Origin: a virus
Length of the DNA stretch: 21,234 nucleotides
IMG/VR virus record: IMGVR_UViG_3300038851_000016
Coordinates: 1-21,234 of that record
Strand: one strand, 5' to 3'
Shown: positions 1 through 18,153 of the stretch, piece by piece
Layout of the letters: every line of letters starts with the position of its first letter
Position numbering within the stretch: position 1 is the first letter of the stretch
The notes under the pieces: generated by a model
The model's input: only the letters and a program-made list of their open reading frames with translations
Database searches by the model: none
Told to the model about the DNA's origin: nothing
Made by a program: the position numbers and the translations under genes

Positions 1-481
1 CGTCTAAACTATCCACCCAACCTAATCTCCATAACATCCTAAACACGTGTGTGTCCACTGCTATGTGTGGTTCACCAAATACGAATCTCATCACTATGTC
101 TGAACTTTTTCTACCAACTCCGGGCAGTGTCATTAATTCTTTCTGTGTACTAGGGACCTGCCCGTTGAACTTCTCTAACAACATTTTACTTGTGGCAAGA
201 ATGTTTTTGCTTTTTGCATTGAACAATCCTGCAGGTTTGATTGCTTCTATTATATCGTCCTGTGACAGTTTTATCATCTCCTCGGGCGTGTCAGCTAAAG
301 CAAACAGTTGCCTACAAGCAACCGCAGTCCTTTTATCTTGACTTTGTGCAGACAGCATTACGCCAATTAAACTGGTATATGCTTTCGAATATATTTTTGC
401 TTTTGGTTTTCTGTTTGAGTAGTGTGGATATAGAGAACTTAACTTCTCGTATATGTAATCGATGTCATTACTGTTCTTCAT
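1..481 (-). CDS. nth: Endonuclease III-like DNA glycosylase/AP lyase (3' part outside window)
   Basis: Base-excision repair enzyme that removes oxidised pyrimidines and nicks abasic sites. The frame opens at ATG 481 and stays open for 160 codons to the window edge. Residues 43-48 read LSAQSQ, matching the LLSAQ helix of Nth. The helix-hairpin-helix LPGVGRK is at 119-125 with the expected catalytic Lys125, and AVDTH at 141-145 supplies the catalytic Asp143. Alignment to E. coli Nth from memory runs without gaps over most of this part. The C-terminal [4Fe-4S] cysteines would lie outside the window, so their presence is unknown. The start overlaps the end of the gp41 gene by 14 nt, so the two are probably translationally coupled and share the promoter in front of the primase gene. 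No strong ribosome binding site is visible. MutY-type activity is less likely because the K/D pair fits Nth. Confidence 0.9.
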   Translation of the reverse strand, partial: MKNSNDIDYIYEKLSSLYPHYSNRKPKAKIYSKAYTSLIGVMLSAQSQDKRTAVACRQLFALADTPEEMIKLSQDDIIEAIKPAGLFNAKSKNILATSKMLLEKFNGQVPSTQKELMTLPGVGRKSSDIVMRFVFGEPHIAVDTHVFRMLWRLGWVDSLD

Positions 482-1910
482 CTGAGTGCAGTTCGTTTAG
501 AAGTTGTCTCAGTTTGCCACCTTCCACGTTGGCCTTTACTTTGCCTATCGTGTCACCCTTACGAGGATCCGGCACTTTTGGTTGTGCATCCGTTGGCGTT
601 CCGTCTGCTGTTGAAACTTTAGATGTTTGTTTCAATGAGTCATATATTGTGCTTCTCTGTTTGTCAAACTGTTTGTATTCCGGATCATCTGCTAGGTCTC
701 TGATTCTTAAGCTATCAACGTCAAACTCCAAGTCTACTTTTTGCCCAACACCGCTAGATGATCTAGTCTTCATGAATTGTATTTGATACCTGCCACGTTC
801 TTTCATAGCCCTGCTTGTGAATATACCTATCACGTTGTCTGCTGTCTGTATCTTTGAAAGTCCACCTGATATGTGAGAGTGATCAAACTCTATCTCTTCG
901 ACACTGGCTCTGTTTAACTGTGATGCTGTTGCCAGTATGCATTGTTTCTCAACAACCAAGTTTCTAAGTTCTTCCGATACATACTTGTCTTTTATAAACA
1001 AGTCTGCCGGACTTATTCTTTTGCTCTTTGGCATCATTAAATCCAAGTAATCTATCAATATGCAATCAATTTTTTTCTTGTTTTTTAATTCTAATTCTTT
1101 AAGATAGGTTCTTATATCTAACACAGTGCTACCACTTGGCAAGTATTTGATCTGTAAGTTTCCTGATTTCTTTGCCATCATCTTGACCTTCATTTCAACA
1201 TTTTCTATTTCAGGAAATACTTTACGTGTTGGAATGTTAGTCATCATAGCATCTAATCTCATAGCAGTGAGCTGTTCGCTTAATTCAAAAGATATGTAAC
1301 AAACGTTCAGACCAGCAGTGGCCCAGTTTACTGCAAGATTCTGTAAGAACAAACTCTTACCTGCGCCTGATCCACCTGCAAAGATGTTTAGTTCTCCTCG
1401 GTTGAATCCACCGAATAGTTTCTTGTCAATGTTCTGCCAGCCAGTGCTGACCTGCCCGTTGTTTGCCTTGAGTGCCTCTAGTCTTCCTTTAGGATCCTCA
1501 AAGTAGTCTGTACCAAGATCACGTGTTAGTCCCACATTGACTGCGTCCTTGACCATGTCTTCTACTGGAGCATAGTCACCCTTCTCCAGCAAGTCTGCTG
1601 ATTGAAGTATTGCATGTTCTAGTGCCTTGTGTCTTGAAAAAGTTTCAAATTCATCTAACAGCCAATTGAAGTGGCTCGGATCTAAGTCTTTTGCCGATTT
1701 TAATTTAATATCATGTTTGGCATTAACCTGTTCCACGTCCGGCATCACTTTGTACTCGTCCATGTAGTCCTTAACAAATTTTGCGATTGGTTGTAGTTTA
1801 CGATCAAACGATTCCGGTTTGAATATATTCTGTGCTCTTGCAAACGATTCGGCATCTGCCAAAAGCATCTCTATATAAAGTTTTTGTACATCAAATGTGT
1901 ATTCAGCCAT
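468..1910 (-). CDS. 41: Replicative DNA helicase, T4 gp41-like (DnaB family)
   Basis: Hexameric 5'-3' helicase that unwinds the phage replication fork and partners the primase. At 480 aa it is close to T4 gp41. The N-terminal domain (about 1-150) is helical. The RecA-like core follows, with Walker A GGSGAGKS at 179-186, Walker B ending in DYLD at 287-290, the sensor-like motif TASQLNR at 328-334 and KTRSSSGVG at 381-389, which should carry the arginine finger. The last 60 or so residues are charged and low in complexity, probably a flexible tail. The start overlaps the end of the primase gene by 8 nt, and the end overlaps the nth start by 14 nt, making a three-gene unit. The family is clear; the T4 gp41 name rests on the adjoining gp61-type primase. 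Confidence 0.93.
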   Translation of the reverse strand: MAEYTFDVQKLYIEMLLADAESFARAQNIFKPESFDRKLQPIAKFVKDYMDEYKVMPDVEQVNAKHDIKLKSAKDLDPSHFNWLLDEFETFSRHKALEHAILQSADLLEKGDYAPVEDMVKDAVNVGLTRDLGTDYFEDPKGRLEALKANNGQVSTGWQNIDKKLFGGFNRGELNIFAGGSGAGKSLFLQNLAVNWATAGLNVCYISFELSEQLTAMRLDAMMTNIPTRKVFPEIENVEMKVKMMAKKSGNLQIKYLPSGSTVLDIRTYLKELELKNKKKIDCILIDYLDLMMPKSKRISPADLFIKDKYVSEELRNLVVEKQCILATASQLNRASVEEIEFDHSHISGGLSKIQTADNVIGIFTSRAMKERGRYQIQFMKTRSSSGVGQKVDLEFDVDSLRIRDLADDPEYKQFDKQRSTIYDSLKQTSKVSTADGTPTDAQPKVPDPRKGDTIGKVKANVEGGKLRQLLNELHSDEEQ

Positions 1911-2916
1911 ACATCTTTCTCTTTAGATCAATTTTTAGTTTACTTGACTCCGTTGTTTTCAGTATTGATTGTATAGTAAACAGCCTACCATATTTTAACA
2001 CAGCATCCGCCACATCGCCAACCGTTTTATCCCATTCTGGAAAAGCAACACTCCATCCAAATTCTATCGCTTGGTTAATAAGTTTCTCTCCTGGTGCATC
2101 TCTGTCTGGCACAACAATTACCTGTCTGCCCAAAGCATCTATCAACTCTCTTTGTGTATCATTTATCTCTGAACCAAGTATGCTCACACCAGAAACGGTA
2201 ATTGCATCAAAAGGTCCTTCTGTTACAATAACAAATTTTCTTGTCCAATCCTGTGCATCCATATTAAACACGTATCCTGGCTGTACATCTGTGTAGTATT
2301 TTACTTTGTCTGATTGCTCGAACATTCTTCCTGTGAATCCAACAATATCCCCTCGCCAATAGAATGGAATCAATAATCTTTTGTCGATGTCCCAGTGTGT
2401 GTCAGATGAATACATGAAGTCATACCAGTCTGCGCCGATACCCCTTCCTGATAGATAGTTTAACAGATTATCAATTTTAAGTTGTTGATCTTTTTGCATT
2501 GTTCCTACTGTGTATTCTTCTAGCCATTTGTCTAGCGTCCTTGTGTGCTTTGGCAGTGTTTTTTTCTTGAATGTAACAAATTTTTTCTTTTCGTATTTAG
2601 AATCACTTTCTTCTTCACGCATGGCCTCTATTGCCAATTTACGTATTGTGTCGTCTGGTATGCCAATGTAACCCATGAACTGTCTCATCTTGTAAGTTAG
2701 TTTCCGTCCAATTACATAACTTGCTTTGAATCCACAGTTGAAACAGTGATAACTTACTGTGCCGTCAGCACTGGTCATTATACCTCCGCGTTTTTTCTTG
2801 TCTTGGGTCTCTCCGTTGTGAACACAACAAGGAGCATTAAAGGCTATCCATCCGCTGGGTGTTTTTTTCCTACCCACAGGCAGGCTCGTCAGAATTGTAT
2901 TCTGGATCAGGTTCAT
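1903..2916 (-). CDS. 61: DNA primase, T4 gp61-like
   Basis: Makes RNA primers for lagging-strand synthesis and works in a primosome with the gp41 helicase encoded next to it. At 337 aa it matches T4 gp61 (about 342). An N-terminal zinc-binding domain has Cys30/Cys31, His33, Cys58 and Cys61 as likely ligands. A TOPRIM catalytic domain follows, with TEGPFDAI at 232-239 (Glu233) and the metal-binding DRD at 271-273. The ATG at 2916 begins only 7 nt after a good -10 box, so the transcript may start at or next to the start codon; I see no Shine-Dalgarno sequence. The promoter sits inside the 3' end of the structural gene upstream. Identity is secure at family level. Confidence 0.93.
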   Translation of the reverse strand: MNLIQNTILTSLPVGRKKTPSGWIAFNAPCCVHNGETQDKKKRGGIMTSADGTVSYHCFNCGFKASYVIGRKLTYKMRQFMGYIGIPDDTIRKLAIEAMREEESDSKYEKKKFVTFKKKTLPKHTRTLDKWLEEYTVGTMQKDQQLKIDNLLNYLSGRGIGADWYDFMYSSDTHWDIDKRLLIPFYWRGDIVGFTGRMFEQSDKVKYYTDVQPGYVFNMDAQDWTRKFVIVTEGPFDAITVSGVSILGSEINDTQRELIDALGRQVIVVPDRDAPGEKLINQAIEFGWSVAFPEWDKTVGDVADAVLKYGRLFTIQSILKTTESSKLKIDLKRKMYG

Positions 2917-3771: not shown

Positions 3772-4146
3772 ATGAACGAAATTTTTAACACACTGAGGGA
3801 CAAATTTCCCTTTTTGAGCCTTATACGAAAGGGAGACCTTGAATATGTAGGCATAGTACAAAACGAAGACGCAAATGTTATAAGTTTCTATGATTACGGA
3901 AGATTGTATTCTCCACAGGACAAGATGAAATTTTTAAAATTTGGAGAAACTTGGTGGCACGAGTCCAACAGGAAAATACCTATCAACATATTTCTAAAAG
4001 GTGATTTCCGTTACTTTCGTACAACACTAGTTACATTAAACTCTAAGGATATCGAGATAGTACATGGACCAACTGTTAGGCTTTCTGATATATCGAAGAA
4101 AAGGGTAAAGAGACGTACTATCCAATTAGTTAGAAAACCTGTCTAG
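3772..4146 (+). CDS. Conserved hypothetical protein of marine T4-like phages
   Basis: 124 aa with no catalytic motif or membrane segment that I recognise. It is a mixed alpha/beta sequence: FPFLSLIRKG near residue 13, YVGIVQNED at 25-33, a central WWHESNRKIPINIF, and a very basic C-terminus (KKRVKRRTIQLVRKP). The basic tail could contact nucleic acid, but that is a guess. I recall similar proteins in T4-like cyanophage genomes annotated only as hypothetical. It is the only plus-strand gene in this part of the window, divergent from the structural gene. Its stop overlaps by 4 nt, tail to tail, with the 47-aa gene on the other strand. Confidence 0.7.
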   Translation: MNEIFNTLRDKFPFLSLIRKGDLEYVGIVQNEDANVISFYDYGRLYSPQDKMKFLKFGETWWHESNRKIPINIFLKGDFRYFRTTLVTLNSKDIEIVHGPTVRLSDISKKRVKRRTIQLVRKPV

Positions 4147-4286
4147 TCTTCTTGCTTCTCAATATATTTTTTGTAATATATCGTTAAAGGATTATTTGGC
4201 TGATAGCCTAATAGTTCCTTTTGTGATGAAGTGGATTTTTTGGAGCGTCTTTTTGTTATTCTTCTTTTACTTTTTTGATGTTGCAT
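4143..4286 (-). CDS. Small basic protein, 47 aa, unknown function
   Basis: ATG 4286 to TAG 4143. The N-terminal half is extremely basic (MQHQKSKRRITKRRSKK). The second half reads as an ordinary protein, with KELLGYQPNNPLTIYYKKY near residues 24-41. The start lies 20 nt inside the end of the DnaE-like gene, the same overlap seen at three other junctions of this operon, and it fills a gap that would otherwise be 120 nt long. I see no strong ribosome binding site, so translation would rely on coupling. Composition suggests nucleic-acid binding. Confidence is limited because of its size. Confidence 0.5.
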   Translation of the reverse strand: MQHQKSKRRITKRRSKKSTSSQKELLGYQPNNPLTIYYKKYIEKQED

Positions 4287-4857
4287 CAAAACTATATTTA
4301 GCTCTGCTGATCAAATTCATCTGTACTACAATCGCCTGAGCGTATGCAACTGCGTGTGACTTCTTGAAGAAATAACTGCCATCGGCTGGCTTTACCCAAA
4401 CCTCTTTCATTATATTGGTCCAATCCTTTTGCATGAGATATCTCTTGGCAGGACGTATGATAGCCAATACAGCCGCAAGTTGTTCTATTGTTTTTGGTTG
4501 TAACTTAGACACTATGCTGTAATGACCATTAAGGTGGAAAAGGTTCTCAACCACTTTTGGATCTTTCAACATATCCCAATCCGGTTCCTGTATCATTAGT
4601 TCGACAAGTTCTTGTTCGGATTTTACGTCTTTGTATATGTTTACATTAAGGCAGTCTATCTTGAAGTATCCTCTATCTTCTGCTTTCTTGTAATCCAACG
4701 TAGCGTGTCCTGTGACAGGATGTTCTGGCACTGCATGGAAGTAGACTCCTGTCTTGTGTTTCTCTGTCTTGTCTTCCTTGATTATAGAAGCAGGTGTGTG
4801 CTTAAATAATTTTAGTGTGCCGTCTCTATCAAAAAAATCTATGTCTACGTCAGGCAT
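4267..4857 (-). CDS. Miniature DNA polymerase III alpha (DnaE)-like protein
   Basis: 196 aa that read like fragments of the DnaE catalytic core joined together. MPDVDIDF at 1-8 corresponds to the PDxDxDF palm motif that carries two catalytic aspartates in DnaE. GYFKIDCLN at 63-71 resembles the later 'KfDfLGL' segment. The stretch SKLQPKTIEQLAAVLAIIRP (117-136) resembles 'lkPtsfediva..alyRPGP', and FFKKSHAVAYA at 163-173 matches 'FnKSHaaaYa'. DnaE proteins are about 1,100 aa, so the PHP domain, most of the fingers and the tau- and clamp-binding parts are missing. It starts in a TAATG overlap with the gene before it. Independent polymerase activity is doubtful; a role in clamp or fork binding is possible. 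I believe related short proteins occur in T4-like cyanophages. Confidence 0.65.
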   Translation of the reverse strand: MPDVDIDFFDRDGTLKLFKHTPASIIKEDKTEKHKTGVYFHAVPEHPVTGHATLDYKKAEDRGYFKIDCLNVNIYKDVKSEQELVELMIQEPDWDMLKDPKVVENLFHLNGHYSIVSKLQPKTIEQLAAVLAIIRPAKRYLMQKDWTNIMKEVWVKPADGSYFFKKSHAVAYAQAIVVQMNLISRAKYSFDATSKK

Positions 4858-5090
4858 TAGTGTATGCTTCCTTTGTCTTTCTCGTTATATTTTATAAACT
4901 CTTCTTTTGCTCCAGGTTGCAATAAATCTATCACATCCAGTAATGCTCTGTACCCTGCACTGTTTAACATGTCTCTGTCCATCTTTGGTACCATAATTTT
5001 CCTAATGTCTCCATCACTGGTTATTATGACACAACAGTCCCCATCTTGGAAATCTAATTCATTCGAATGCTCTACATCTATCTTACCCAA
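4857..5090 (-). CDS. Conserved hypothetical protein, 77 aa, TTG start
   Basis: Small acidic protein (GKIDVEHSNELDFQDGDCC at the start, then a beta-rich segment and a helical C-terminus). I recognise no domain. I place the start at TTG 5090 because a strong Shine-Dalgarno sequence, AAAGGAGG (5104-5097), lies 6 nt upstream, whereas the open frame upstream of it (to 5126) has no usable signal and lies inside the preceding gene. The start overlaps the end of the zinc-finger gene by 8 nt and the stop overlaps the DnaE-like start as TAATG, so all three should be co-translated. Residues near 20-31 (CCVIITSDGDIR) look like a beta-hairpin. Function unknown; a replication-accessory role is suggested only by position. 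Confidence 0.65.
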   Translation of the reverse strand: MGKIDVEHSNELDFQDGDCCVIITSDGDIRKIMVPKMDRDMLNSAGYRALLDVIDLLQPGAKEEFIKYNEKDKGSIH

Positions 5091-5769
5091 TTTTAGCCTC
5101 CTTTGCTGTGTCCTGCACCAACACATGGTCTGCTGGATAACTTCTAAACTTATTTGCCCAATATTCCGGATTTATAAATCTTTGCGTCATTTGTAATTGT
5201 TCGTCGCTAAAAGATTTTAGCATCTTTTTACCTGCGTTGCAACCTAGTAACAACCATGGACTTATTTTGCCCTGTTGTATGTGTTGCACTGCTCTGTTTG
5301 TATTGACTAGTCGGAAATAGTCCGACCATTGTGCATTCTGTTCCACTGCCCAGTCCATCATTGTTGTAATCGTTCTTTGCAAGGCCGCCTCCACTGGTTC
5401 TCTTTTAATTGCATCTATAAGATATGCTTCATAAAGATCATCCCTTGCCCAATGATCCAATTTGATCTTGGAGTGCAACACGTAGTCAATATATCTTTCT
5501 GGATATAGTGGGTTGATGTGCATAATGTACCTTCCAAATTTCACAAATGCGTTGTAGTATGCACTCTTGACAAATTCGTCATATGTTTTTGGCTTTGTGT
5601 TTTTTTGATGTATCTGATAGAAACGCTGGAAAACCATGAATGCATTGACTACCCATTTCTCGTCTTTTTGTAAGTATCGTCTCTTAGGCTCACACATATG
5701 AACTTGTAAAGTTCTTTCTCTAGTGAATTCCTTACCACAATAAGGACATTTAAATTTTGTCGATGCCAT
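5083..5769 (-). CDS. Zinc-finger protein of unknown function, in replication operon
   Basis: 228 aa. The N-terminus holds a C2HC zinc finger: Cys8-x2-Cys11, His24 and Cys26 (KCPYCGKEF, then VHMCEPKRRY). The rest is mostly helical with many aromatic and basic residues, including AYYNAFVKFGRYIM near 71-84. I do not recognise a catalytic motif. I recall homologues in T4-like cyanophages annotated as hypothetical. Its size resembles T4 gp59, the helicase loader (217 aa), and the operon lacks an obvious gp59, but gp59 has no zinc finger, so I do not propose that name. The start overlaps the gp62-like gene by 20 nt and the end overlaps the TTG-started gene by 8 nt. DNA binding near the fork is an inference from finger and context. 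Confidence 0.75.
   Translation of the reverse strand: MASTKFKCPYCGKEFTRERTLQVHMCEPKRRYLQKDEKWVVNAFMVFQRFYQIHQKNTKPKTYDEFVKSAYYNAFVKFGRYIMHINPLYPERYIDYVLHSKIKLDHWARDDLYEAYLIDAIKREPVEAALQRTITTMMDWAVEQNAQWSDYFRLVNTNRAVQHIQQGKISPWLLLGCNAGKKMLKSFSDEQLQMTQRFINPEYWANKFRSYPADHVLVQDTAKEAKIG
5097..5104 (-). promoter_or_regulatory. Strong Shine-Dalgarno sequence deciding a TTG start
   Basis: Minus-strand AAAGGAGG, 6 nt before TTG 5090. It lies within the last codons of the zinc-finger gene and is the best ribosome binding site I found in the window. Confidence 0.75.
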
Positions 5770-6416: not shown

Positions 6417-6909
6417 CACCATAATCCACCTGTTCGCATTGTCTCGAAATATCTTTTACAAAATAAGCACAGACAGGCCTTGGTCCATTGCTTAATGGTA
6501 CTGCCAACATCTGTCCAGACTTAATTTTTGGAAAGTACCATTTAACCTCTGTGTAGATATCAACCACATCTATTGGATAAAAATCCGGCTTTGAACTAGA
6601 TAATGGATTGAAAGTAAATGCATCAAAGCCTCTATCGTTCAAACTTGTTATTGGTAGAACATGCATTTCTGGTTGTCCCTGCTCACCTATCAGCATCTTC
6701 CAGTCTAACGGCATTTTAATTTTGTAGTCACCAATCTCCAGGACGGCCGCCGGCGCATTGAAACTTTCAAGAAATATTAATGGTATATAGAAGAAATCAG
6801 GATTGCCTGGATCTGAATTGTCAAGCACTGCAAAACGCAATTTTTCATCTACCCATTCCGGTATTTTTTCTAGCTTAAACGGTCTATTTTCAAGTGTAAG
6901 GATTTTCAT
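6406..6909 (-). CDS. Conserved hypothetical protein beside uvsW
   Basis: 167 aa with no signal peptide, membrane segment or known catalytic motif. Mostly beta-rich, with a conserved-looking core FNPLSSSKPDFYPIDVVDIY at residues 102-121 and then VKWYFPKIKSGQMLAVPL. I recall proteins with this core in T4-like cyanophages next to uvsW, always listed as hypothetical. The start lies 20 nt inside the end of uvsW and the end overlaps the 74-aa gene. Because the gene travels with fork-remodelling and clamp-loader genes, a replication or recombination role is likely, but nothing in the sequence says which. Confidence 0.75.
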   Translation of the reverse strand: MKILTLENRPFKLEKIPEWVDEKLRFAVLDNSDPGNPDFFYIPLIFLESFNAPAAVLEIGDYKIKMPLDWKMLIGEQGQPEMHVLPITSLNDRGFDAFTFNPLSSSKPDFYPIDVVDIYTEVKWYFPKIKSGQMLAVPLSNGPRPVCAYFVKDISRQCEQVDYGDVW

Positions 6910-8353
6910 AATTTACTTTCTCTATATTATAAGGATAATTTGCCTCTTTGTAAAACTTTTTCCTTGCACCCAAATGTCTTTTTGCAAATTTGCAACTGCT
7001 GGTAATATCCCATATTTGCACATTCTCTTTGTCCTCTGCCTTACGTATGCCTCTTCCTATACTCTGTATCACACGGACAAATGACTTGCCAGGCTCTATG
7101 AGAACAAGATTAAAAATACGAGGAATATTAATACCAACACTGGCAACTCCATATGTGGCGATAATAACTTTATTTGTTGCAGTAGATACTTCATCATATT
7201 GCTCCTTTCTGTCTACGTTTTTTGTTGATCCTGATACAAACACAGAATCTTTTATTTTTTTCTCAAGCATTTGACCTGCTGATATTCTGTCGACTAATAT
7301 CAGTGTGTTACCTGACGTTGCTATGTCTTTTATTGTATTAGCAATCCATGTCATTCTAGTTGTGTCTGTCGTAAGCCATTTTAGTTCTTCTGCATATGTT
7401 TTGAACTGTGGATGGTCTTGTGTTTGCAAAACATTTACATGACAGTTTGCAAGTACACCTTTATCTTGCAGTTCACTTGCCTGGATCCTGTTTGCAACTT
7501 CTCCTATACTACATTTAATACCCATGAACTCGTAGTCTGCTTTGGGCACTGTGCCTGTAAGTCCCCAACGGATGCCACAGTGTGCGAAAGGTCCTGTAAG
7601 CAATCTTTTAAGTACATCTGCTTTTGCCATGTGTACCTCATCAATGATTACTGTATTGATACCTTCGCAAAATTCTTTGAACTCTGTGCTGTGTTCATTC
7701 TTTGCTTTTTTTTCAAGCACATTTAAACTTTGCCAAGTCGCGATTGTATTGTATCTTCCTACTTCTTTCCGATCACCATAGTAGACACCAACATCTAAAT
7801 TACAAGCGACAAAGTCTTCTTCTGTCTGTGTAACTAAACTTTTATTTGGTACTATTGTTATTGTGCGTCCATAAGGTTCCACTAGTTGGCATAGTGCCGC
7901 TGTAATAATTGTTTTACCTGCCCCTGTGGCAATTTCTTGTATGCATTGAGGATTTTTTATAAACTTGTTTATAGTTTCTATTTGATAATCTCTTAATTCA
8001 ATTGGTTGTCCTGCCATTGGATGCGTACTAGGCCATTTTATGTGACTTAGATAATTTTTGTCCACTGCCTTAAATTCGAAGTCGTGTTTCTCTCTGTGGT
8101 CTTCAAAATCCACATACACACCGCCCTCTTCTAGTATAGGAAGTATTTGGTCAACAAGGTTTAGATATGTTGTGCCTCCTAAACCAAAAAATGATATCTT
8201 ACCGTCCCATCTGCCTAGCTTCACGGCTGGAAGATGTCTTGCATATGGTATTTCGTATTTGAATTTATTAGATAGTCTCTTCCTCCATTCGAGTGATAAG
8301 TTCTCGAACTTCACATTTACTTCGTCTTTTATTACTAATTTACAACTGCTCAT
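6890..8353 (-). CDS. uvsW: UvsW-like superfamily 2 helicase
   Basis: ATP-dependent helicase that in T4 regresses stalled forks, migrates Holliday junctions and removes R-loops. At 487 aa it matches T4 UvsW (503). An N-terminal domain covers about 1-110, with RHLPAVKLGRWDGKISFF at 39-56 typical of UvsW. Then come the SF2 motifs: LRDYQ at 120-124, Walker A ATGAGKT at 142-148, DEVH at 238-241, LTGT at 265-268 and QSIGRGIRK at 430-438, whose arginines complete the ATPase site. All key residues are present. It follows the HARP-like gene by one nucleotide and overlaps the next gene by 20 nt. It belongs to the operon from the promoter at 9723-9750. Confidence 0.93.
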   Translation of the reverse strand: MSSCKLVIKDEVNVKFENLSLEWRKRLSNKFKYEIPYARHLPAVKLGRWDGKISFFGLGGTTYLNLVDQILPILEEGGVYVDFEDHREKHDFEFKAVDKNYLSHIKWPSTHPMAGQPIELRDYQIETINKFIKNPQCIQEIATGAGKTIITAALCQLVEPYGRTITIVPNKSLVTQTEEDFVACNLDVGVYYGDRKEVGRYNTIATWQSLNVLEKKAKNEHSTEFKEFCEGINTVIIDEVHMAKADVLKRLLTGPFAHCGIRWGLTGTVPKADYEFMGIKCSIGEVANRIQASELQDKGVLANCHVNVLQTQDHPQFKTYAEELKWLTTDTTRMTWIANTIKDIATSGNTLILVDRISAGQMLEKKIKDSVFVSGSTKNVDRKEQYDEVSTATNKVIIATYGVASVGINIPRIFNLVLIEPGKSFVRVIQSIGRGIRKAEDKENVQIWDITSSCKFAKRHLGARKKFYKEANYPYNIEKVNYENPYT

Positions 8354-9752: not shown

Positions 9753-10232
9753 ATGAAAAGAATAAAAAATAAAAGCGTTAACGTAAGAAAACAACTTAAG
9801 ATTAAGTTGCAGAATACTTTGGTAAGATACAAAAATAAAGTGGGATTCAAACCCACTGAGCATCAGGCTTATCATTGGTTTAGAATTATAAACAGAGGAC
9901 TGTTCAACAATAGGTTGCCTATGGTCCCTATTAGAATTAAAAAATTGCATCATGACTGGGGAAGGTGTGTGGCAGACTGGGATAACAGGAAATGTAGAAA
10001 AGGAACATACAACCAAAAAATTATTCCATATAACAAAACAAACGTCGTGCATTACATTGAATTGCATTGTAAGTTTCCAACATGGAAAGAGTTTATTGAA
10101 ACTTTATCACACGAAATGGTACATCTCTATCAAATGGCCTGGTTGAAGGATCCTTATTCTAATCACAATGCAAACTTCTTTGCGTGGAAAAACAAATTTA
10201 GACTTGCTGGCCTTAATCTATCAAGGTGTTAG
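9753..10232 (+). CDS. SprT-like zinc metalloprotease
   Basis: 159 aa. The gluzincin motif HEMVH at 120-124 has two zinc-binding histidines and the catalytic Glu121. The third ligand is probably His138 in SNHNANFF, followed by the W/F pattern of the SprT family ('HgpeFk.w'). Residues 43-71 (FRIINRGLFNNRLP, then HHDWGRC) match the family's N-terminal part, where a substrate-side Trp-Gly pair is common. Related cellular proteins (SPRTN) cut proteins cross-linked to DNA; phage homologues are common in marine myoviruses but little studied. The N-terminus is strongly basic, compatible with DNA binding. There is no signal peptide. It overlaps the convergent gene at 10221 by 12 nt. I see no clear promoter or ribosome binding site for it. 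Confidence 0.82.
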   Translation: MKRIKNKSVNVRKQLKIKLQNTLVRYKNKVGFKPTEHQAYHWFRIINRGLFNNRLPMVPIRIKKLHHDWGRCVADWDNRKCRKGTYNQKIIPYNKTNVVHYIELHCKFPTWKEFIETLSHEMVHLYQMAWLKDPYSNHNANFFAWKNKFRLAGLNLSRC

Positions 10233-10964
10233 AACCTTTTCAAACTCATTATAACTGATTAACTTGCTATTGCCTAGATCTGTACCGGTCTGAAAATAAT
10301 TCATGTACTCCGGTGGATTATCATGCACCACAGTGTAGTTAACGTCTGGCCGCATCTTTAACATATCTCTAAACTGTTTTAGCCAACCGTCGTACACCAC
10401 TTCGTTGTGCCGCGGCCCGTAGTTTTTTGTATCTTGGTAGATGTTGTTTAACTGATCTTTTCCATACTCTTTGAAATCATATCCTATCAAGTAAATGTTT
10501 TTGTGACCGTGGACTCCTGCTGTCCAAAAAGCCTGGTTCCCACATATCCAATGTGGATTGTTTGGAATCAAGTGGAGATACGATGGACCACCTTTTGGAT
10601 ATCGATTGACTTCTAATGATGTGGAGTAGTGAAAACACTTCTCATAAACTTTGGCCTCCACCATTTCTAGTGTGATAGGAGAGTCAACAGAAAAAATATA
10701 ATCTGGTATAAAATCTCTGTACAATGCATTACAGCCATAGGTCTGCCCTGTTGATTCCAATCTGTTAAGATCAAAATTTTTACGTGAAGGTCCATTGCCT
10801 ATACAGTATGCGTTGCCCCGAGGCACTGCTTTTACCCTGTCTTCGAAGAAAGCAGTTTCCTGTATCTTCTTGCCTTGCCTTATTATGAGATGTGTGTTAA
10901 CTGTCTCTCCTTCATAAGGTTTCCATTCTATTGGTTGTATTTTTGGTGCCCCACCTATTCTCAT
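10221..10964 (-). CDS. GT42/DUF115-like putative glycosyltransferase
   Basis: 247 aa. CIGNGPSRKNFDL at 54-66 is the nucleotide-binding loop shared by Cst-type sialyltransferases (GT42) and the DUF115/MAF family. It is followed by GCNALYRDF (77-85), and by a later helix-strand WTAGVHGHKNIYLIGYDF (147-164), the same order as in Cst-II ('CNqfy', 'G..aia.GykeIyl.GiDf'). These families transfer nonulosonic acids or related sugars from CMP or other donors. The first 45 residues are an extra N-terminal segment. It is the last gene of the minus-strand glycan operon and starts in an ATGA overlap. The donor cannot be read from sequence, and no CMP-sialate pathway genes are in the window. Confidence 0.68.
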   Translation of the reverse strand: MRIGGAPKIQPIEWKPYEGETVNTHLIIRQGKKIQETAFFEDRVKAVPRGNAYCIGNGPSRKNFDLNRLESTGQTYGCNALYRDFIPDYIFSVDSPITLEMVEAKVYEKCFHYSTSLEVNRYPKGGPSYLHLIPNNPHWICGNQAFWTAGVHGHKNIYLIGYDFKEYGKDQLNNIYQDTKNYGPRHNEVVYDGWLKQFRDMLKMRPDVNYTVVHDNPPEYMNYFQTGTDLGNSKLISYNEFEKVLTP

Positions 10965-11836
10965 TTGATATATTTTTCCTCTAGTCTCTTTTTAATTCTT
11001 TTCCATGGTACACCTTGTTCTATCTCGTCAGTCCACCATTCAGTATATGCTAACTTATTTGCCCAGTTTTGTCTATCCGGCATGTCAGGTTTTAGAATTT
11101 TCTGAAATGTTTTATTACCAACATCATAACTTAAACTGGCCTCCGAAACGAAAACAGGTATGCCAGAAAACACTGCCGTCATGGCAGGATTGCTTGAATG
11201 GCTTACCACCGCCCACGCTGACTTCAATCTTTCTGCAAGGTCTGTATCATCATATGTGTTTCTATCTTTATTAGGCCTAACCATCTTTACATCTTTGTAT
11301 TTTTTTGTGTCTATGATGACATGATTCCTAGGGTGTGGTCTGACTACTATAGGCTTGTTGGTGTGTTTTCTTATCTCCGTGATCTGTTGGTCAAACCATT
11401 TTGCCATTGGTGGATTATTTCTCCATTGGTGACTGTTAGTGTGTTGTCCACAAATTATAATATCGTTGCCAGTTTGTTTCCAAGGTTTCAGTTCTATGTT
11501 AAACTTTTTCCAACGTGCTGTATCCACATCATCATTCACAAAATCTGCTTCTCGATTAATACCATTGATCCCTATCTTCCATGTCTCGTTTCTTTTTATT
11601 CCTCCTACTTCTACAACAACCACGGGCTTGTTTTTATTTCTGTAAGTGTCCCATATGTTCCGATACTTGGCCATTCTACCTTGCCATAGCACTGACCATA
11701 TGACTGCAACATCACATTGACCATCATCCTGATTTACAAGGACAGTATCACCGGCCGCCCTCATACTTTTGATAAAGGCATCAAATACTTTTTTTGAATT
11801 TAGTGGTCCGTAATTTGTAAAACAACTAATTTTCAT
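10961..11836 (-). CDS. GT-B-like protein, paralog 1 of a four-member family
   Basis: 291 aa with a Rossmann-like two-domain pattern. The second half holds IVVRPHPRNH at 163-172, then AVVSHSSNPAMTAVFSGIPV at 209-228. This resembles the donor-binding half of capsule-type GT-B transferases (KpsC/KpsS or CDP-glycerol transferase style), in which a 'H.S....E....G.P' motif closes the site. The C-terminus has WANKLAYTEWWTDEIEQG (258-275), a signature shared with the genes at 14467, 15440 and 18858. It is most like the one at 14467, which also has RPHP. The gene is joined to both neighbours by ATGA overlaps. Family and substrate are unassigned; transfer of a sugar is inferred from fold pattern and context. 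Confidence 0.62.
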   Translation of the reverse strand: MKISCFTNYGPLNSKKVFDAFIKSMRAAGDTVLVNQDDGQCDVAVIWSVLWQGRMAKYRNIWDTYRNKNKPVVVVEVGGIKRNETWKIGINGINREADFVNDDVDTARWKKFNIELKPWKQTGNDIIICGQHTNSHQWRNNPPMAKWFDQQITEIRKHTNKPIVVRPHPRNHVIIDTKKYKDVKMVRPNKDRNTYDDTDLAERLKSAWAVVSHSSNPAMTAVFSGIPVFVSEASLSYDVGNKTFQKILKPDMPDRQNWANKLAYTEWWTDEIEQGVPWKRIKKRLEEKYIK

Positions 11837-12702
11837 TTGTTTTTCCAGTAATCAATTTTTTTCATTTCTGGTGTTTTCCTAATGTCTTCGGCTTTAGAAC
11901 TTTTAGCATCTTTCCTATCCCCTTTGAAGTGATCTATATACTGTCCTAGCTCACTGTTTACGAATACGTGATGGCCCCTAACACCTTTTGAATATCCTAT
12001 ATCGTGTACTTTTACTGAATGCTTCTGTTTGTATTCTTTGGTGAGATGCCAGAAAACATAAGAGTCGTGCCATTCTAGTAGTTGGAATATATCTGCAGAT
12101 GTATACAGTTTTTCCCAGTCATTTACAAAATTTTGTATCAAGCTATGTTTAATATTGTAACAAACCAGTCCACATTCAGGATATTTGTTACTACCACGAT
12201 CATTTTCTCTATCAAGATATGTAACCATTGTATCACTTGGACAGATGCCATTAACGAATTTCATTGGCATGTCTCTAAATGTGTATGTGTCATCATCAAG
12301 CCATATCACATAGTCATAATCCTTGTAAGTTTTGACTGCATGGGTAATACAAGAAACTTTGTAGCTAAATTTAACAGCGTTCCAAAGATAGGATTCTTTT
12401 TTAGCGTCAAGTCCGCCCTCTGTGGCCAACTTTGGTGAACGCCTTACACCGCCAGGTATTTCATTTAGTTTGCCCATCGCCACAGGATCATTTTTATATT
12501 GCTCTCTGAATTTATGTAATGCAGGATTTGCTTTGTCTATATCAATCCAATCAACTGCCTTTTCCAAAGATGTAGGTTTTTCTCCTTGATAGTAAACGGT
12601 GACATCAGCATTAGGCCATCTGTTTAGGACAGATTCCACCATTCTTTTTGCATATCTATCCCAGTCACCTGGTTTGAATGTTGTTATTACTTTGTATATC
12701 AT
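11833..12702 (-). CDS. GT-A fold glycosyltransferase
   Basis: 289 aa. The N-terminus MIYKVITTFKPGDWDRYAKR looks like the first beta strand and helix of a nucleotide-sugar-binding GT-A fold. YDYVIWLDDDTYTF at 129-142 contains the DxD-type metal-binding motif (Asp136-138). ECGLVCYNI further on resembles the acceptor-side 'n.Gvi.yn' segment. A likely catalytic loop around EWHDSYVFW follows. The C-terminal 30 residues are highly charged. No membrane segment is present, so it should act in the cytoplasm on a soluble or lipid-linked acceptor. Overlaps of 4 nt (ATGA) link it to asnB upstream and to paralog 1 downstream. The exact GT family is not determined. Confidence 0.75.
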   Translation of the reverse strand: MIYKVITTFKPGDWDRYAKRMVESVLNRWPNADVTVYYQGEKPTSLEKAVDWIDIDKANPALHKFREQYKNDPVAMGKLNEIPGGVRRSPKLATEGGLDAKKESYLWNAVKFSYKVSCITHAVKTYKDYDYVIWLDDDTYTFRDMPMKFVNGICPSDTMVTYLDRENDRGSNKYPECGLVCYNIKHSLIQNFVNDWEKLYTSADIFQLLEWHDSYVFWHLTKEYKQKHSVKVHDIGYSKGVRGHHVFVNSELGQYIDHFKGDRKDAKSSKAEDIRKTPEMKKIDYWKNK

Positions 12703-14465
12703 AGTTCAATTTTATATTTTTTGATCCAGTCGTTTATAATCCAGGATGGTATCAAAGCCTTTCCTGCCTTTTGACTTGCACTGATTATATCTAGTCCACT
12801 TTTTTCTTTTAAGGCTTTTTTGTATTTTTTTTGTAACCTGTCACTAGTGCCATTTGCTAACCAGTAGCCTAGTGGCACAGTCCATCCTGTCTTAAGTTTC
12901 GTGATAATATTCGATGGTAAAATATCTTTGTACGCTTGTTTAGTGGGCAATTTGGTGCTACCTTTTAATCTGCCTATCTTCTGTGAACTTGGTATGCTCA
13001 TGCAGTATTTCATAAACATTTTTGTGGCAAGTGGGAATCTTCCCTCCATTCCGTATGCCATACCGTATTTGTCGTTCCTACTAAAAAATTCTTCAGGTAC
13101 CTGGGTAACACAATCCAACGCCATATATGATGCAACTGGATCTTTTGGATTCCATAAGTCATCTGGATAACAAATTTTTAACTCTTGCAGTACTTCTTCC
13201 CTTGTTAGTGTTCCGCCCATCACCAGTCCTGCCAATGGACGTTTTATTCTTTGCATCCATAGTTTCAAAACATCATCCCAATTTTCGATATGTCTTTTTC
13301 CAATTTGTTTGTCTAAGTATTTAGGTTTTGTCATTTTCCAATACTTTGGATAACCACCTAATATTTCGTCTCCCATGTCGCCTGCCATTGTGACCACAAT
13401 GTTGTGTGCTCGTAGCACTTTGTTAGTGTAGCAGTACATGGCAATAGATTGATTATACATTGGCTGTTCCATGTAGTAGATGGAGTCGTCCCAACTGTCA
13501 AGTATCTTGTCAGGGGTAATTGTAACTTCTGTATGTCTGTATTTCTCTTCCATTGCAAGTCTTCTTGCCTCCTGGGCATCACTATTGAAATCCTCAGATA
13601 CAACTACATTTGGTTCCATTTTATTTGTAAAAGTACGGGCGGGTGCTTTTAATTTATTCAGTTCGTGTGCTATAAGGCTAGAGTCTAGTCCCCCGCTCAA
13701 GAATACTCCAATTGGTCTTTGTCCTATACTACACATTTTTACTGTTGCGGATGCCATCTGTCTGAATTCGAAACGATTAAAACGATGATCGCTTGTTGGT
13801 TTAATGAATATCCTTTTTGTTGCAACAAATTTTTTACTTGCTATGTCATATACTTTTGTTTCGCCCGCTAATAATTTTTTTATATTACTGAACACTGTAT
13901 TTCGTGTTGCATTTATTCCAGTCCATGCAAGGCAACTCATTGCCAACTTGTCTACGTGTCGTGATCCAGGCACTACGTCTAACATACCTTTTATTTCCGA
14001 GCCAAACACCAGTCCTCGGTCTATTTCTGCATAGTATACAGGTTTGATGCCTGCGTGATCTCTGCTGATTGTTATCTGTTTTTTATTTGGTTCGTAGTAG
14101 GCAAAGCCATGCATTGAATCTATCTCATCAAGGAAATCTATTCCGAATTCGTCAAGTCCCCATGCCAATAACTCTGTATCACATCCTGTGATACCTGTAA
14201 ATCCTTTGCCTTTGTATTTGGCCTTTAGTTCATAGTAATTGAAGATCTCTCCATTGTAAACAAGTATGTTTCCGTTTGGTGTCTTCCATGGTTGGATTGA
14301 CAACTGCGGTTGTGCCATTATGCTCAACAGGTTATGCCCCAGTGTAACTTGATGGTCAGGATCCCACCATATCTTGTGTCCGTCGGGTCCACGATGTTCA
14401 CACTTACGTATAAAATTTTGTATGAACTCAGGATCGTGAGCAGTAATTCCGTATATACCACACAT
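12699..14465 (-). CDS. asnB: Asparagine synthetase B-type glutamine amidotransferase
   Basis: 588 aa, two domains. The N-terminal Ntn glutaminase starts MCGIYG with nucleophile Cys2, and has RGPDG at 25-29, NGEIFN at 71-76 and the Asp96 of GCDTELL. The synthetase domain has the pyrophosphate loop SGGLDSS at 257-263 and AGDMGDEILGGY later. Members of this class make asparagine or amidate other carboxylates; several in O-antigen and capsule clusters amidate uronic acids or similar sugars. Because it sits between glycosyltransferases, glycan amidation is more likely here than amino-acid supply. Two positions are unusual: the glutamine-anchoring Arg (R49 in E. coli AsnB, 'ERLSI') is Leu in HNLLSI at 44-49, and the usual SGDGGDE is AGDMGDE. 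It lies 1 nt after the gene at 14467. Confidence 0.88.
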   Translation of the reverse strand: MCGIYGITAHDPEFIQNFIRKCEHRGPDGHKIWWDPDHQVTLGHNLLSIMAQPQLSIQPWKTPNGNILVYNGEIFNYYELKAKYKGKGFTGITGCDTELLAWGLDEFGIDFLDEIDSMHGFAYYEPNKKQITISRDHAGIKPVYYAEIDRGLVFGSEIKGMLDVVPGSRHVDKLAMSCLAWTGINATRNTVFSNIKKLLAGETKVYDIASKKFVATKRIFIKPTSDHRFNRFEFRQMASATVKMCSIGQRPIGVFLSGGLDSSLIAHELNKLKAPARTFTNKMEPNVVVSEDFNSDAQEARRLAMEEKYRHTEVTITPDKILDSWDDSIYYMEQPMYNQSIAMYCYTNKVLRAHNIVVTMAGDMGDEILGGYPKYWKMTKPKYLDKQIGKRHIENWDDVLKLWMQRIKRPLAGLVMGGTLTREEVLQELKICYPDDLWNPKDPVASYMALDCVTQVPEEFFSRNDKYGMAYGMEGRFPLATKMFMKYCMSIPSSQKIGRLKGSTKLPTKQAYKDILPSNIITKLKTGWTVPLGYWLANGTSDRLQKKYKKALKEKSGLDIISASQKAGKALIPSWIINDWIKKYKIEL

Positions 14466-14466
14466 T

Positions 14467-15450
14467 TTAGAATCCTAACTTTTGTTTGAAACGTTTGAAC
14501 ACGGTGCCGTTTTTAATTTCCGCTTCAGTCCACTGTTTGTATCCTAGGTCATAGACCCATTGATCCCTGTCAGGATATTCTGGATTTTCAATTTTTGACA
14601 AGTCTTTGTTTGCTACAGGCCAAGCCAGTGCAAGATCAGATGTAACAAAGGTAGGGACTCCACGAACGCAAGAGTCGATACAGGCAGTAGAATTGTGAGT
14701 AACAACAGCATGACAATTATTTAAGGCGTCCTGATAGTTGAATCTATAATGCTTTTTTTCATCACCTTTGAAAAACTTTTGTCCTATTACGACCTGCACA
14801 TCTTTGGGAAATTCGTTCATCCTGTTCTCCATCGCGGCAACATGATTTGGGTGTGGTCTCACAATAAATTTTCTTTTGGTTATAGGCCTTAGTTTTTCAT
14901 AAACGTCCTTGAACCATTTTATAGGGTCAAGTTCATTCATCGACCAGTTGTCCTGAGGCTGTAAGACAAACAGAATTGGATCGTCATGATTTGATTTTCT
15001 CCACGGCGCATAGTTGATGTTCCATATCTTTTTCATTCTTTCCCATCTATCCGGAGGACTATTGTCACTCAAAAAGTTTCCGTTGTTCATTGGTGAATAC
15101 AGTGCCACACGCCAGTGATGGTTTGGATCAGTGATCGTGTTACCAAAGCTAGATAGTATGCCTCCGTCAAAAGTTATAATGTAGATGCCTTTCTTCTTTG
15201 CACGTTCTACTAGATCTCTTCTACGTCCTTTTGTATGATGCATTTGATTTGTGCCACCGTATCCGAACATACAACCTATTGGTGCGGTTGGCTCCATCTC
15301 GTCCTTGTCCCATGGTCCTACTTTGTGTTCATTAACTATGATAGGTTCATCACCACATGCCCTTATACCAGTTGCCATGTGTTGCAACAGGTCCCAACTG
15401 GCACCTCTACGCCTGTCCTTTACTGTCCTTCGAAATATCTCAACTTTCAT
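14467..15450 (-). CDS. GT-B-like protein, paralog 2 of a four-member family
   Basis: 327 aa, the longest family member. The N-terminal half has a Rossmann-like pattern with CMFGYGGTNQMHHTKGRRRD (60-79) and a glycine-rich ITFDGGILSSFG (92-103). The second half has FIVRPHPNHVA at 195-205, AVVTHNSTACIDSCVRGVPT at 248-267, and a C-terminal signature WVYDLGYKQWTEAEIKNG. RPHP and the 'THNS' motif tie it to paralog 1, while DLSKIENPEYPD ties it to paralog 3 (DFSKIEKPRYED). It is preceded by paralog 3 with an 11-nt overlap and followed by asnB after 1 nt. Probable glycosyltransferase; donor and acceptor unknown. Confidence 0.62.
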   Translation of the reverse strand: MKVEIFRRTVKDRRRGASWDLLQHMATGIRACGDEPIIVNEHKVGPWDKDEMEPTAPIGCMFGYGGTNQMHHTKGRRRDLVERAKKKGIYIITFDGGILSSFGNTITDPNHHWRVALYSPMNNGNFLSDNSPPDRWERMKKIWNINYAPWRKSNHDDPILFVLQPQDNWSMNELDPIKWFKDVYEKLRPITKRKFIVRPHPNHVAAMENRMNEFPKDVQVVIGQKFFKGDEKKHYRFNYQDALNNCHAVVTHNSTACIDSCVRGVPTFVTSDLALAWPVANKDLSKIENPEYPDRDQWVYDLGYKQWTEAEIKNGTVFKRFKQKLGF

Positions 15451-16255
15451 CTAGTATCTCCATGTAGTATCCGTTACGAAATTCTTCCTGTGTGAATTGA
15501 TTGTATGCTAGACTGTATAAAACCGGTCTTGGATCTTCATACCTAGGTTTTTCTATTTTAGAAAAATCTTGTTCACATACAGGCATACACGGGTTGTCAA
15601 AGTTTGCAAATGCAGGCACGCCGTTAGTGAGTGCTTTGATCGATATAGAACTGTTAAATGTGACGACAGCATGTACCTTTTCCCATTCGAAAGGTTTAGC
15701 TGGTTTATTGTTTGCACTCTTTCCCGGCATCATCTTGCCCTCACCATCTATGACTGCTTCAGGATTGTAAGGCTTTTCACGTACAACAATTTCTCTATCT
15801 GTGTTTTCTTTTAAAATTTTCATTGTGTTATCTAGCCAATCTTTTCCATTAAACATTTCTGCCATAGCATGACTAGGTGGAACAACCAGCACATACGACC
15901 CGTTCTTGTGGAAGGGCTTTATCTCATCTTTGTATTGCTTCTTGAATCTGTCATCTGGTCTGTGATCTACAAATGTTTTAACATGTTGATTCTTAACACA
16001 TCTCATCCAGTATGGTGTGGCCCTGCTTTCTCCCCAGTAAGGCCTGTCGATGTAATAAAAATCTTTTTTGTTCTTCTGTGCATGTTTGTAGACAAGATGT
16101 GTGCCTCGTAACACGCCCATGAATACGACTTTGTCAAAGTCGGTTGTGCTTAAAACTGTTTCATAATTTGTTAGCTTACAGTTTGGCATTCCCCTTGCCG
16201 CACTTTCAACATATTTTTCAGTTTTTGCACGTTCGGTCCTAACCGCGTAATTCAT
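15440..16255 (-). CDS. GT-B-like protein, paralog 3 of a four-member family
   Basis: 271 aa. Compared with paralog 4 it shares FYYIDRPYWG at 66-75 (there FWFTDTPYFG), PYWMRCVKNQH (81-91), a DRF box near 102, GSYVLVVPPS (119-128), and REIVVREKP (154-162) where the RPHP of paralogs 1 and 2 has become 'REKP'. AVVTFNSSISIKALTNGVPA at 196-215 and VLYSLAYNQFTQEEFRNG near the C-terminus complete the family pattern. It starts in a TAATG overlap with the oxygenase gene and ends 11 nt inside paralog 2, so the three should be co-translated. Role in glycan transfer is inferred from motif pattern and neighbours. Confidence 0.62.
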   Translation of the reverse strand: MNYAVRTERAKTEKYVESAARGMPNCKLTNYETVLSTTDFDKVVFMGVLRGTHLVYKHAQKNKKDFYYIDRPYWGESRATPYWMRCVKNQHVKTFVDHRPDDRFKKQYKDEIKPFHKNGSYVLVVPPSHAMAEMFNGKDWLDNTMKILKENTDREIVVREKPYNPEAVIDGEGKMMPGKSANNKPAKPFEWEKVHAVVTFNSSISIKALTNGVPAFANFDNPCMPVCEQDFSKIEKPRYEDPRPVLYSLAYNQFTQEEFRNGYYMEILDES

Positions 16256-17019
16256 TACCTGACCTCTTCAACATTATACATTTTTGCGTAACCTCTCTTA
16301 AACTCCCCGATAATGTTTACACTTCTTCTATACTTTGTTGCATTTTCACGTAAAGAAACGCCATGCACGTTGTTTGGAGAGTTGTTAGCAAACATCACAA
16401 ATGTGTTTCGCTTGTAGGGTACCGTCTTCGTTATTTTGCCTAAATCATTTTCGTAAATTTGTCTTCCGCTTTTCATATCAACTTTTTTTACTTTTGATTG
16501 TGTTTCGTAGATTTGGAACTCTCCGCCCGAGCTGTCGTCATCTCTGTAAGGCATGTATAATAATCCTGCCCACATCTCCATTGGATTGTCTATGTGTGGA
16601 GTTCTAGATGTTTTTTCAACTATTGGTTTATGCATCACTACTTGGCAATCTGTCCAAATATTTTTATTTTTGTCAGCCCAGCCCCTTGCACCTAGATCAT
16701 TTTCTGTAAATTTTTTCTGTAACACATTTGGCATGAAAGGTTTAAACAGTCCGTTGACTTCATTAAACCATTCGGCTGAAGTGTGATACTGTGTAAACTT
16801 TTTCCAAACTTCTGGAATGTCCTCATCTGGATGTAGTAATCTATTAGCTTTCATCCTATAACATATGCCATTATCAAATGGCTCCGTGTTCAACACCTGT
16901 GACTCAGGAAAATTGTTTTCAAGTTCCTCATAAAGGTCCCATGGTAATGCATCTTCAATTACTATGTGTGGATAAGGATCAACCTGGACTGTTGGCTTTT
17001 TTTGTAACAATGAATACAT
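16255..17019 (-). CDS. 2-oxoglutarate/Fe(II)-dependent oxygenase
   Basis: 254 aa, a prolyl-4-hydroxylase-like double-stranded beta-helix protein. The iron triad is His142 and Asp144 in RTPHIDNP and His219 in NNVHGVSL. Arg231 or Arg232 in KYRRSVNI should bind 2-oxoglutarate. Between them are GLLYMPYRDDDSSGGEFQIY (152-171) and VPYKRNTFVMFANNSPN, typical of the family. Such enzymes hydroxylate amino-acid or sugar substrates, and many are found in phage and bacterial glycan clusters. The start codon is only 6 nt from a good -10 box, so the message may be leaderless. The stop overlaps the start of paralog 3 (TAATG). Substrate unknown, but a sugar or lipid carrier in the same pathway is likely. Confidence 0.85.
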   Translation of the reverse strand: MYSLLQKKPTVQVDPYPHIVIEDALPWDLYEELENNFPESQVLNTEPFDNGICYRMKANRLLHPDEDIPEVWKKFTQYHTSAEWFNEVNGLFKPFMPNVLQKKFTENDLGARGWADKNKNIWTDCQVVMHKPIVEKTSRTPHIDNPMEMWAGLLYMPYRDDDSSGGEFQIYETQSKVKKVDMKSGRQIYENDLGKITKTVPYKRNTFVMFANNSPNNVHGVSLRENATKYRRSVNIIGEFKRGYAKMYNVEEVR

Positions 17020-17025
17020 GGTTAT

Positions 17026-17054
17026 ATTATAGTTTCAATTAGTCTAAATGTCTA
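17026..17054 (-). promoter_or_regulatory. Sigma70-type promoter for the 17019-10221 glycan operon
   Basis: Minus strand TAGACA (17054-17049), 17-nt spacer, TATAAT (17031-17026). Five of six and six of six matches at ideal spacing. Predicted start is near 17019-17020, which is the ATG of the oxygenase gene. The -35 lies in the last codons of the GT61 gene. Confidence 0.7.
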
Positions 17055-18133
17055 ATTAATTTAGGTATATCAACATCAAAATTAATTAAGTCATTAAGTC
17101 TTTTCACTCCTTTTGGTTTTTTACCATCTGTTTCTATCGGCGTTGTCTTTGCAACAAAAACTTCGTGCTTTAGTTTCAAACTGTTTGACAATAACGGGTA
17201 TACTTTTTTGTGTAACATATTCCCGTCTTGAATTTCTATCACCTTAGTTCCCTCTTTGCACCAAAGTGCATTGACCATTCCTGCCCCGTGTGTTGCTAGA
17301 ACATGTGATGCCTCCGCAAACACTTTGACTTGTTCCTTTATAGGTAAGTCCTCTAGTGTAACAGACTCCCATCCTTTCAGTGCCATTAACACTTCACTAG
17401 CATTGTTTAATTTTCTAGTGTGTGCTTTGTCACGCGATACAAATATTTTCCTAAATGGTTTGATATTCTCTGGTATTCCAAACGATCCTTTGAAATGTCT
17501 TAACCATGGCGGCAAGTGTGGTGTGACAACACCGTCATTGCAGTTGCTCATCGATGGTGCTAGTAAATGTTGGAACCGCCATGTCTCTCCTTCAGGCATG
17601 ACATAGTACTTCAATTCCGGAAACAACTCCTTTGCCACTTTGTCAAAGTATGAACTGGGGTTAGCAAGTATGTAGATGTATTTGGCAAAATTTGTTGACC
17701 ATCTCTTCTCTATCAATCTAAACTTGCTGATCACGTCTATCCATATGTGCCATGGATTGCCTGTACTGTGTTTGTCAATTGGCAACCAGACATACTTGTA
17801 TGAGCCATCGAACTGCTTGGTTATAGGAGGCATTTTAATGTTGATCTCCTCACCCCAAAGGTCCCACAGTCCGTGATGCTTGTTTGGTTTATTCTTGTAA
17901 CGATCAAGCATCGGCCACAGATGCTCTGTTATCATATGTCTATCTTCAGTAATCAAAACTGGCAAACTGTTCACAGAACAGTTATTGAATTCAGCTACAA
18001 ATGTTGGATTACTTGTAAACTTACTTGGCACTTTTGGATGATAATTCATGTTAATGTCATAAGAATTATCAATGATATTGTGTTTGTCTAAGAAGTATCT
18101 TATGCTGGTAATATTTTTAACAAGTTGTGCCAT
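17039..18133 (-). CDS. Family 61 glycosyltransferase (DUF563-like)
   Basis: 364 aa. THGAGMVNALWCKEGTKVIE at 281-300 is the GT61/DUF563 signature ('HGAg..n..f...g..viEi'). KIFVSRDKAHTRKLNN at 229-244, with Arg234 and Arg240, matches the upstream 'yisR....R.i.Ne' box. GT61 enzymes include xylosyltransferases and GlcNAc transferases of eukaryotes and many bacterial capsule enzymes. No membrane segment is evident. It is the first gene on the minus strand after the divergent region at 18134-18166, which is too short to hold much leader. The gap to the oxygenase gene is 19 nt and contains that gene's -10 box, so GT61 may form its own transcription unit or read through. Confidence 0.85.
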   Translation of the reverse strand: MAQLVKNITSIRYFLDKHNIIDNSYDINMNYHPKVPSKFTSNPTFVAEFNNCSVNSLPVLITEDRHMITEHLWPMLDRYKNKPNKHHGLWDLWGEEINIKMPPITKQFDGSYKYVWLPIDKHSTGNPWHIWIDVISKFRLIEKRWSTNFAKYIYILANPSSYFDKVAKELFPELKYYVMPEGETWRFQHLLAPSMSNCNDGVVTPHLPPWLRHFKGSFGIPENIKPFRKIFVSRDKAHTRKLNNASEVLMALKGWESVTLEDLPIKEQVKVFAEASHVLATHGAGMVNALWCKEGTKVIEIQDGNMLHKKVYPLLSNSLKLKHEVFVAKTTPIETDGKKPKGVKRLNDLINFDVDIPKLIRHLD

Positions 18134-18153
18134 GGGTCAGTATACTGTATAAT
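18125..18153 (+). promoter_or_regulatory. Possible promoter for the 18167-21234 operon
   Basis: Plus strand TTGTGC (18125-18130), 17-nt spacer, TATAAT (18148-18153). The -10 is perfect and the -35 poor (three of six). Transcription would start near 18160, about 7 nt before ATG 18167. It overlaps the palindromes in this divergent gap. Confidence 0.45.

Follow-up and report, generated by a model that had tools for sequence, protein, structure and literature searches.

A 196-residue protein encoded in the replication region of a marine phage is probably the catalytic half (C-half) of a minimal C-family DNA polymerase, which would reassemble with a separately encoded N-terminal half (N-half) into an accessory polymerase. 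The gene lies in the window analysed here, a stretch of 21,234 nucleotides comprising positions 1 to 21,234 of IMG/VR virus record IMGVR_UViG_3300038851_000016. From the predicted fold, the conservation of individual residues, the position of the split, the co-occurrence of the two halves and the gene context, we infer that the halves assemble, that the product is an active polymerase with an accessory role, and that the N-half is also present in the window's own genome.

The C-half retains the catalytic residues of Pol III alpha

The initial annotation had recognised four DnaE motifs in DnaE order. All four are found in that order in a single open reading frame (ORF) on the minus strand (Table 1), while the plus strand of the same interval contains many stops. 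Residue mapping onto E. coli DnaE places PDVDIDF at residues 400-406, with D3 and D5 corresponding to D401 and D403. KHKTGVYF maps to 510-517, K66 and D68 to K553 and D555, and NLFHL to 608-612. LQPKTIEQLAAVLAIIRP forms the template/finger segment, and its last residues R135-P136 are equivalent to R639-P640. Finally, KKSHAVAYA corresponds to the steric-gate helix, with H168 in the position of H760.

In E. coli DnaE, the active-site triad consists of D401, D403 and D555, and H760 is the proposed steric gate (PMC8485763). The C-half residues D3, D5 and D68 align with this triad. Across 69 C-half homologues, D3, D5, D7, H34, K66, D68, R135, K138 and H168 are invariant. In line with this, 73 close coding sequences reveal strongly purifying selection, with a mean pN of 0.067, a mean pS of 0.66 and a pN/pS of ∼0.10; this is a raw value, given in place of a corrected dN/dS because pS is near saturation.

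In total, the anchors on E. coli DnaE span residues 400-406, 510-517, 551-558, 608-613, 624-642 and 756-765. The stretches between them lack about 78 residues, which make up most of the thumb, as well as about 90 finger residues. The C-half also lacks the PHP, HhH, OB and C-terminal domains; its 196 residues are wholly covered by palm and fingers, and Pfam detected nothing besides DNA_pol3_finger in the C-half family. As the chain starts at E. coli residue 400, just ahead of the catalytic DxD, the GRGS part of the palm is not included, and this NTP-binding motif sits in a separate protein.

Profiles and predicted fold place the C-half in the C family

A search with the single C-half sequence (phmmer against the PDB) returned MutH alone (E 0.55), so that profiles were needed. 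The PHROG 11778 profile ('DNA polymerase') matched residues 2-186 with an E-value of 1.5e-66. The Pfam domain DNA_pol3_finger matched the window protein alone weakly (E 0.016) and was detected in 9 of 11 members of the family, with a best value of 3.3e-5. When the family profile was searched against all PDB sequences, Pol III alpha chains came out on top, albeit weakly (best E 0.027). Profile alignment with hhalign gave a weak match between the C-half profile and the single E. coli DnaE sequence (probability 5%), 24% with a compact DnaE described below and 91% between the N-half and E. coli DnaE.

An AlphaFold2 model of the C-half, built from 69 homologues, reached a mean pLDDT of 90.1. The top 16 structural matches in VIA-align 2 were all Pol III alpha or PolC (Z 9.6 to 6.0), followed by the first unrelated row at Z 3.0, and residues 1-196 of the model aligned on E. 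coli residues 400-815. Foldseek gave a best E-value of 0.0012 with a poor global TM score, which is due to the deletion of the DnaE thumb and fingers. The model indicates that the C-half derives from a C-family polymerase core and adopts the palm/finger fold of Pol III alpha. This agrees with the origin first proposed for the gene, including the loss of PHP, most of the fingers and the C-terminal domains: the expected match to the DnaE/PolC families was found, and the predicted palm retains all three catalytic aspartates.

The C-half family occurs in 65 phage records, with relatives encoded in at least 571 IMG/VR stretches. In the Atu_ph07 member (L082 14989-15564), the RefSeq start at 15070 lies 27 codons inside the ORF and cuts off the catalytic DIDIDF; both homology and reading frame begin at 14989. 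Contigs with a C-half are also found in at least two archaeal metagenome-assembled genomes, assigned to Natrialbaceae and Pacearchaeota (L425, L426). These are probably misbinned phage contigs. The Pacearchaeota bin (G099) holds the N-half as well as the C-half.

The missing part of the palm is encoded by a second, distant gene

Searching ten complete relatives with PF07733 revealed the NTP-binding part of the palm in all ten, in each case as a separate and distant gene. The encoded N-half proteins have ∼170-185 residues, belong to PHROG 11127 and retain an arginine, a glutamate and GxGRGS in 21 genomes. In the N-half model, residues 79-173 align on E. coli residues 279-393 (highest Z 12.1). 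The N-half therefore ends at E. coli residue 393 and the C-half starts at 400, so that the two are complementary, with the break falling inside the palm domain. Since the second gene encodes the missing NTP-binding part, the active site is complete between the two proteins. Residues 1-78 of the N-half (e.g. in L126 9076-9594) form a small domain without a match in DnaE, whose structural matches were no more than weak, receiver-like ones (Z ∼3). None of 34 N-half ORFs was fused to a C-half.

Of the 25 records with a length of 140 kb or more that were tested for both halves, 23 contain both. This set comprises the ten isolates and G072-G078, found via the C-half; G053, G064, G066 and G068, found via the N-half; and G087-G090, found via a capsid gene. 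As each record was fetched through one half or a capsid gene, none was selected for having the second half. The two exceptions are G089 (186 kb), which carries the C-half and a B-family polymerase (PolB) and in which the N-half was not detected even with an N-half profile, and G068 (191 kb), in which the N-half is present and no C-half was detected. Both may be incomplete records. The N-half was also found in G079 and G080, which are outside the 25-record count. PolB was present in every large C-half record tested.

The protein distances of the N- and C-halves correlate across 21 genomes (r 0.73, compared with a maximum of 0.48 in 5000 permutations), a correlation that could arise from shared phylogeny alone.

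The C-half gene is part of a conserved replication block

The C-half gene is located between the genes for UvsW and for the gp61 primase and gp41 helicase (Table 1), and this arrangement recurs in RaK2, PBECO4 and other phages. The 'replication operon' of the initial annotation is thus real, with gp41 and gp61 downstream and UvsW upstream. The stop codon of the small ORF directly upstream shares one base with the start codon (ATG) of the C-half, a layout that suggests translational coupling. Slightly further upstream, a PHROG 11058 member is found in 7 of the 10 isolates checked.

On the 3' side of the C-half and on the opposite strand, a PHROG 11637 gene is present in the window and in nine of the ten isolate genomes examined. 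It adjoins the C-half even in XacN1 and RAS14, which have no annotated primase-helicase genes adjacent. We regard the PHROG 11637 protein as a candidate partner of the C-half. No terminator-like site was found between the two convergent genes.

Outside this block, an SprT-like ORF with an HEMVH metallopeptidase motif (9753-10232, plus strand) lies between the replication and glycan genes of the window. A long run of ORFs at 10221-20915 resembles, as judged by eye only, surface-sugar, asparagine-synthase, sulfotransferase and methyltransferase genes.

Table 1. Features of the C-half locus in the window, and the compact DnaE of related contigs.
Feature	Position	Strand	Remarks
Endonuclease III (Nth)	2..481	minus	cut by contig end
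Replicative helicase, T4 gp41/DnaB-like	468..1910	minus	assigned by synteny
Primase, T4 gp61-like	1903..2916	minus	assigned from synteny with annotated relatives including RaK2
Convergent gene, PHROG 11637	3772..4146	plus	124 aa
C-half of split minimal DNA polymerase III alpha (putative)	4267..4857	minus	196 aa, ATG start
Small ORF	4857..5126	minus	89 aa, directly upstream of the C-half
C2H2-type zinc-finger protein, PHROG 11058	5083..5769	minus	228 aa
UvsW-type helicase	6890..8353	minus	upstream end of the conserved block
Compact DnaE	L105 1438-3123; L104 1429-3129		contigs G032-G052, G082

A close relative of the window carries the N-half and PolB

A PF07733 search of the window record, a 32.5-kb fragment, did not detect an N-half, nor is PolB evident on it; at this length, the contig cannot be expected to include the partner gene. 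Likewise, no N-half was found in 31 close contigs, in which the search instead brought up the compact DnaE, and shared genes gave no link between contigs of the window clade and marine contigs with an N-half. A link was provided by G087 (196.6 kb), which was reached by extension from a gp23-like gene of the related contig G035. It has the same gene order as the window over the twelve genes that run from gp41 up to the ORF at 8355, and its C-half is 86% identical to that of the window. In G087, the N-half gene lies at 187 kb and that for PolB at 153 kb, which makes it most likely that the window phage has both as well. The coexistence with a B-family polymerase that had been assumed for the window is hence borne out in its relatives, G087 being a close one.

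Some relatives encode an additional, unsplit DnaE

Several close marine relatives possess a single-chain DnaE-like protein of 562 residues, which is encoded after gp41 and usually also after endonuclease III. This compact DnaE has the full palm, with the motifs RGSAGSS, PDVDIDF, KHCGG, KVD and RAHAV, and is matched by PF07733 (2.6e-42) and the Pfam finger domain (8.1e-15), with no PHP domain. In all 21 compact-DnaE contigs tested, the same strand also carries a C-half, ∼5-8 kb upstream; many other C-half contigs are without a compact DnaE.

Where 3.5 kb or more of sequence was available beyond Nth, the compact DnaE came next in 36 of 36 loci; most of these loci were fetched by the compact DnaE itself, and a few share a contig. 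The same order was seen in all four loci fetched by the C-half. As the window contig ends inside Nth, a compact DnaE probably lies just beyond it. G087 has no compact DnaE beside gp41, and since the gene is missing from other close relatives too, the region after gp41 is plastic. We consider it an evenly balanced possibility that some members of the window clade, among them the window phage, combine a B-family replicase, the split C-family enzyme and the compact unsplit DnaE in one genome, with the split and unsplit forms dividing the labour. The combination of a split C-half with a compact unsplit DnaE is possibly new, as a limited search of the open-access literature found no report of both forms together.

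Proposed function and alternatives

We propose that the C-half supplies the C-terminal part of the enzyme, which binds metal and template, and that the product of the distant second gene provides the N-terminal half with the NTP-binding motif GxGRGSS. The two would bind each other and rebuild a single nucleotidyltransferase site of the Pol-beta type. Here, GRGS would hold the triphosphate, D3, D5 and D68 would bind two Mg2+ ions, and H168 would exclude the ribose. The rebuilt enzyme may then add nucleotides beside the B-family replicase, in primer extension, gap filling or repair; a role in repair, if there is one, would be that of a polymerase. DnaE grips its DNA with the thumb and fingers, which are largely gone here, so the heterodimer on its own may bind DNA poorly.

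The same losses, set against a catalytic core that is kept, would also fit a pair of halves that acts as a nucleotidyltransferase other than a usual DNA polymerase, which might extend ends without a template, repair RNA or DNA ends, or make primers. PolB is already present in the large relatives, and the C-half adjoins the primase and helicase genes. However, LQPKTIEQLAAVLAIIRP and KKSHAVAYA are conserved, suggesting selection of paired dNTPs, and we regard this alternative as unlikely.

It is more doubtful still that the C-half is a non-catalytic structural or regulatory subunit, which might bind the primase, the helicase or fork DNA. Its linkage to gp41 and gp61 and to the conserved neighbours of PHROG 11637 and 11058 would suit such a role, but the aspartates and the steric gate are invariant in 69 sequences, and the partner has an invariant GRGS.

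The initial annotation viewed the gene as a relic with some other job, such as clamp binding, acting as a decoy for host Pol III assembly, or repair. The small size of the C-half and the absence of most DnaE domains would fit a relic or decoy. In Pol III alpha, the PHP domain binds DnaQ, a motif after the OB domain binds DnaN and the C-terminal domain binds DnaX. All of these regions are absent from the C-half, and no QL[SD]LF-type clamp motif was found in 162 C-half homologues, which argues against clamp binding and against a decoy. A relic is at odds with the intact, invariant catalytic residues, the low pN/pS and the presence of the missing palm part in a second gene. Furthermore, the C-half is conserved across phages of very different hosts, and we consider a relic or decoy that disturbs host Pol III assembly very improbable.

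Least probable of all is a C-half that, in the window clade, works with or backs up the compact DnaE a few kb away: although every compact-DnaE contig tested also has a C-half, many C-half contigs lack the compact form, the isolates pair the C-half with an N-half, and G087 has no compact DnaE next to gp41.

If the two halves work together as a polymerase, as we favour, the pair tests how little Pol III alpha catalysis needs. A C-family polymerase in two pieces, reduced to the catalytic core, would be among the smallest known designs in the family. T4-like phages with many different hosts, as well as hundreds of marine contigs, retain it alongside a B-family replicase, and the descriptions that we found come from genomes only. 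A working pair would also bear on the claim of Iyer et al. 2021 that forms of this kind are similar to the ancestral bacterial replicase. With the residues mapped and the partner sequences at hand, the idea of a split polymerase is directly testable; we found no laboratory test of split Pol III alpha (activity, binding or expression) in the literature.

Comparison with known systems

Bacterial DnaE and PolC share with the C-half the order of palm and finger motifs, the catalytic triad, the steric-gate histidine and the predicted fold. Unlike these enzymes, the phage form is split in two and is devoid of PHP, HhH, OB, the C-terminal domain and the clamp motif, as well as of most of the thumb and ∼90 finger residues. 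The DnaE-like polymerases of other phages, for example those of Streptomyces and Gordonia, are likewise C-family enzymes carried by phages and are kin to the compact DnaE, but they are single chains and unsplit.

Two phages that carry the C-half have been annotated with a truncated or plain alpha subunit, leaving the partner unrecognised. These are vB_PcaM_CBB, with a truncated alpha of 172 residues (CBB_328; PMC5259590), and Atu_ph07, with the Pol III alpha subunit gp316 (PMC6102473), which may be either the C-half or the N-half.

The closest known system is a split minimal Pol III alpha that Iyer et al. 2021 (PMC7824862) described in jumbo phages of group 2.2. It was suggested there to act together with the B-family polymerase, in the synthesis of one strand or in repair. 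From the description of the two proteins and the list of phages in that report, we identify them with PHROG 11778 (C-half) and PHROG 11127 (N-half). The window gene is a further member of the split polymerase system published in 2021, with which it shares the C-half family and, in its relatives, the split into distant N- and C-half genes and the coexistence with PolB. In contrast to the isolates described there, the window comes from a marine IMG/VR clade, its presumed N-half lies off the contig, and some of its close relatives add a compact DnaE.
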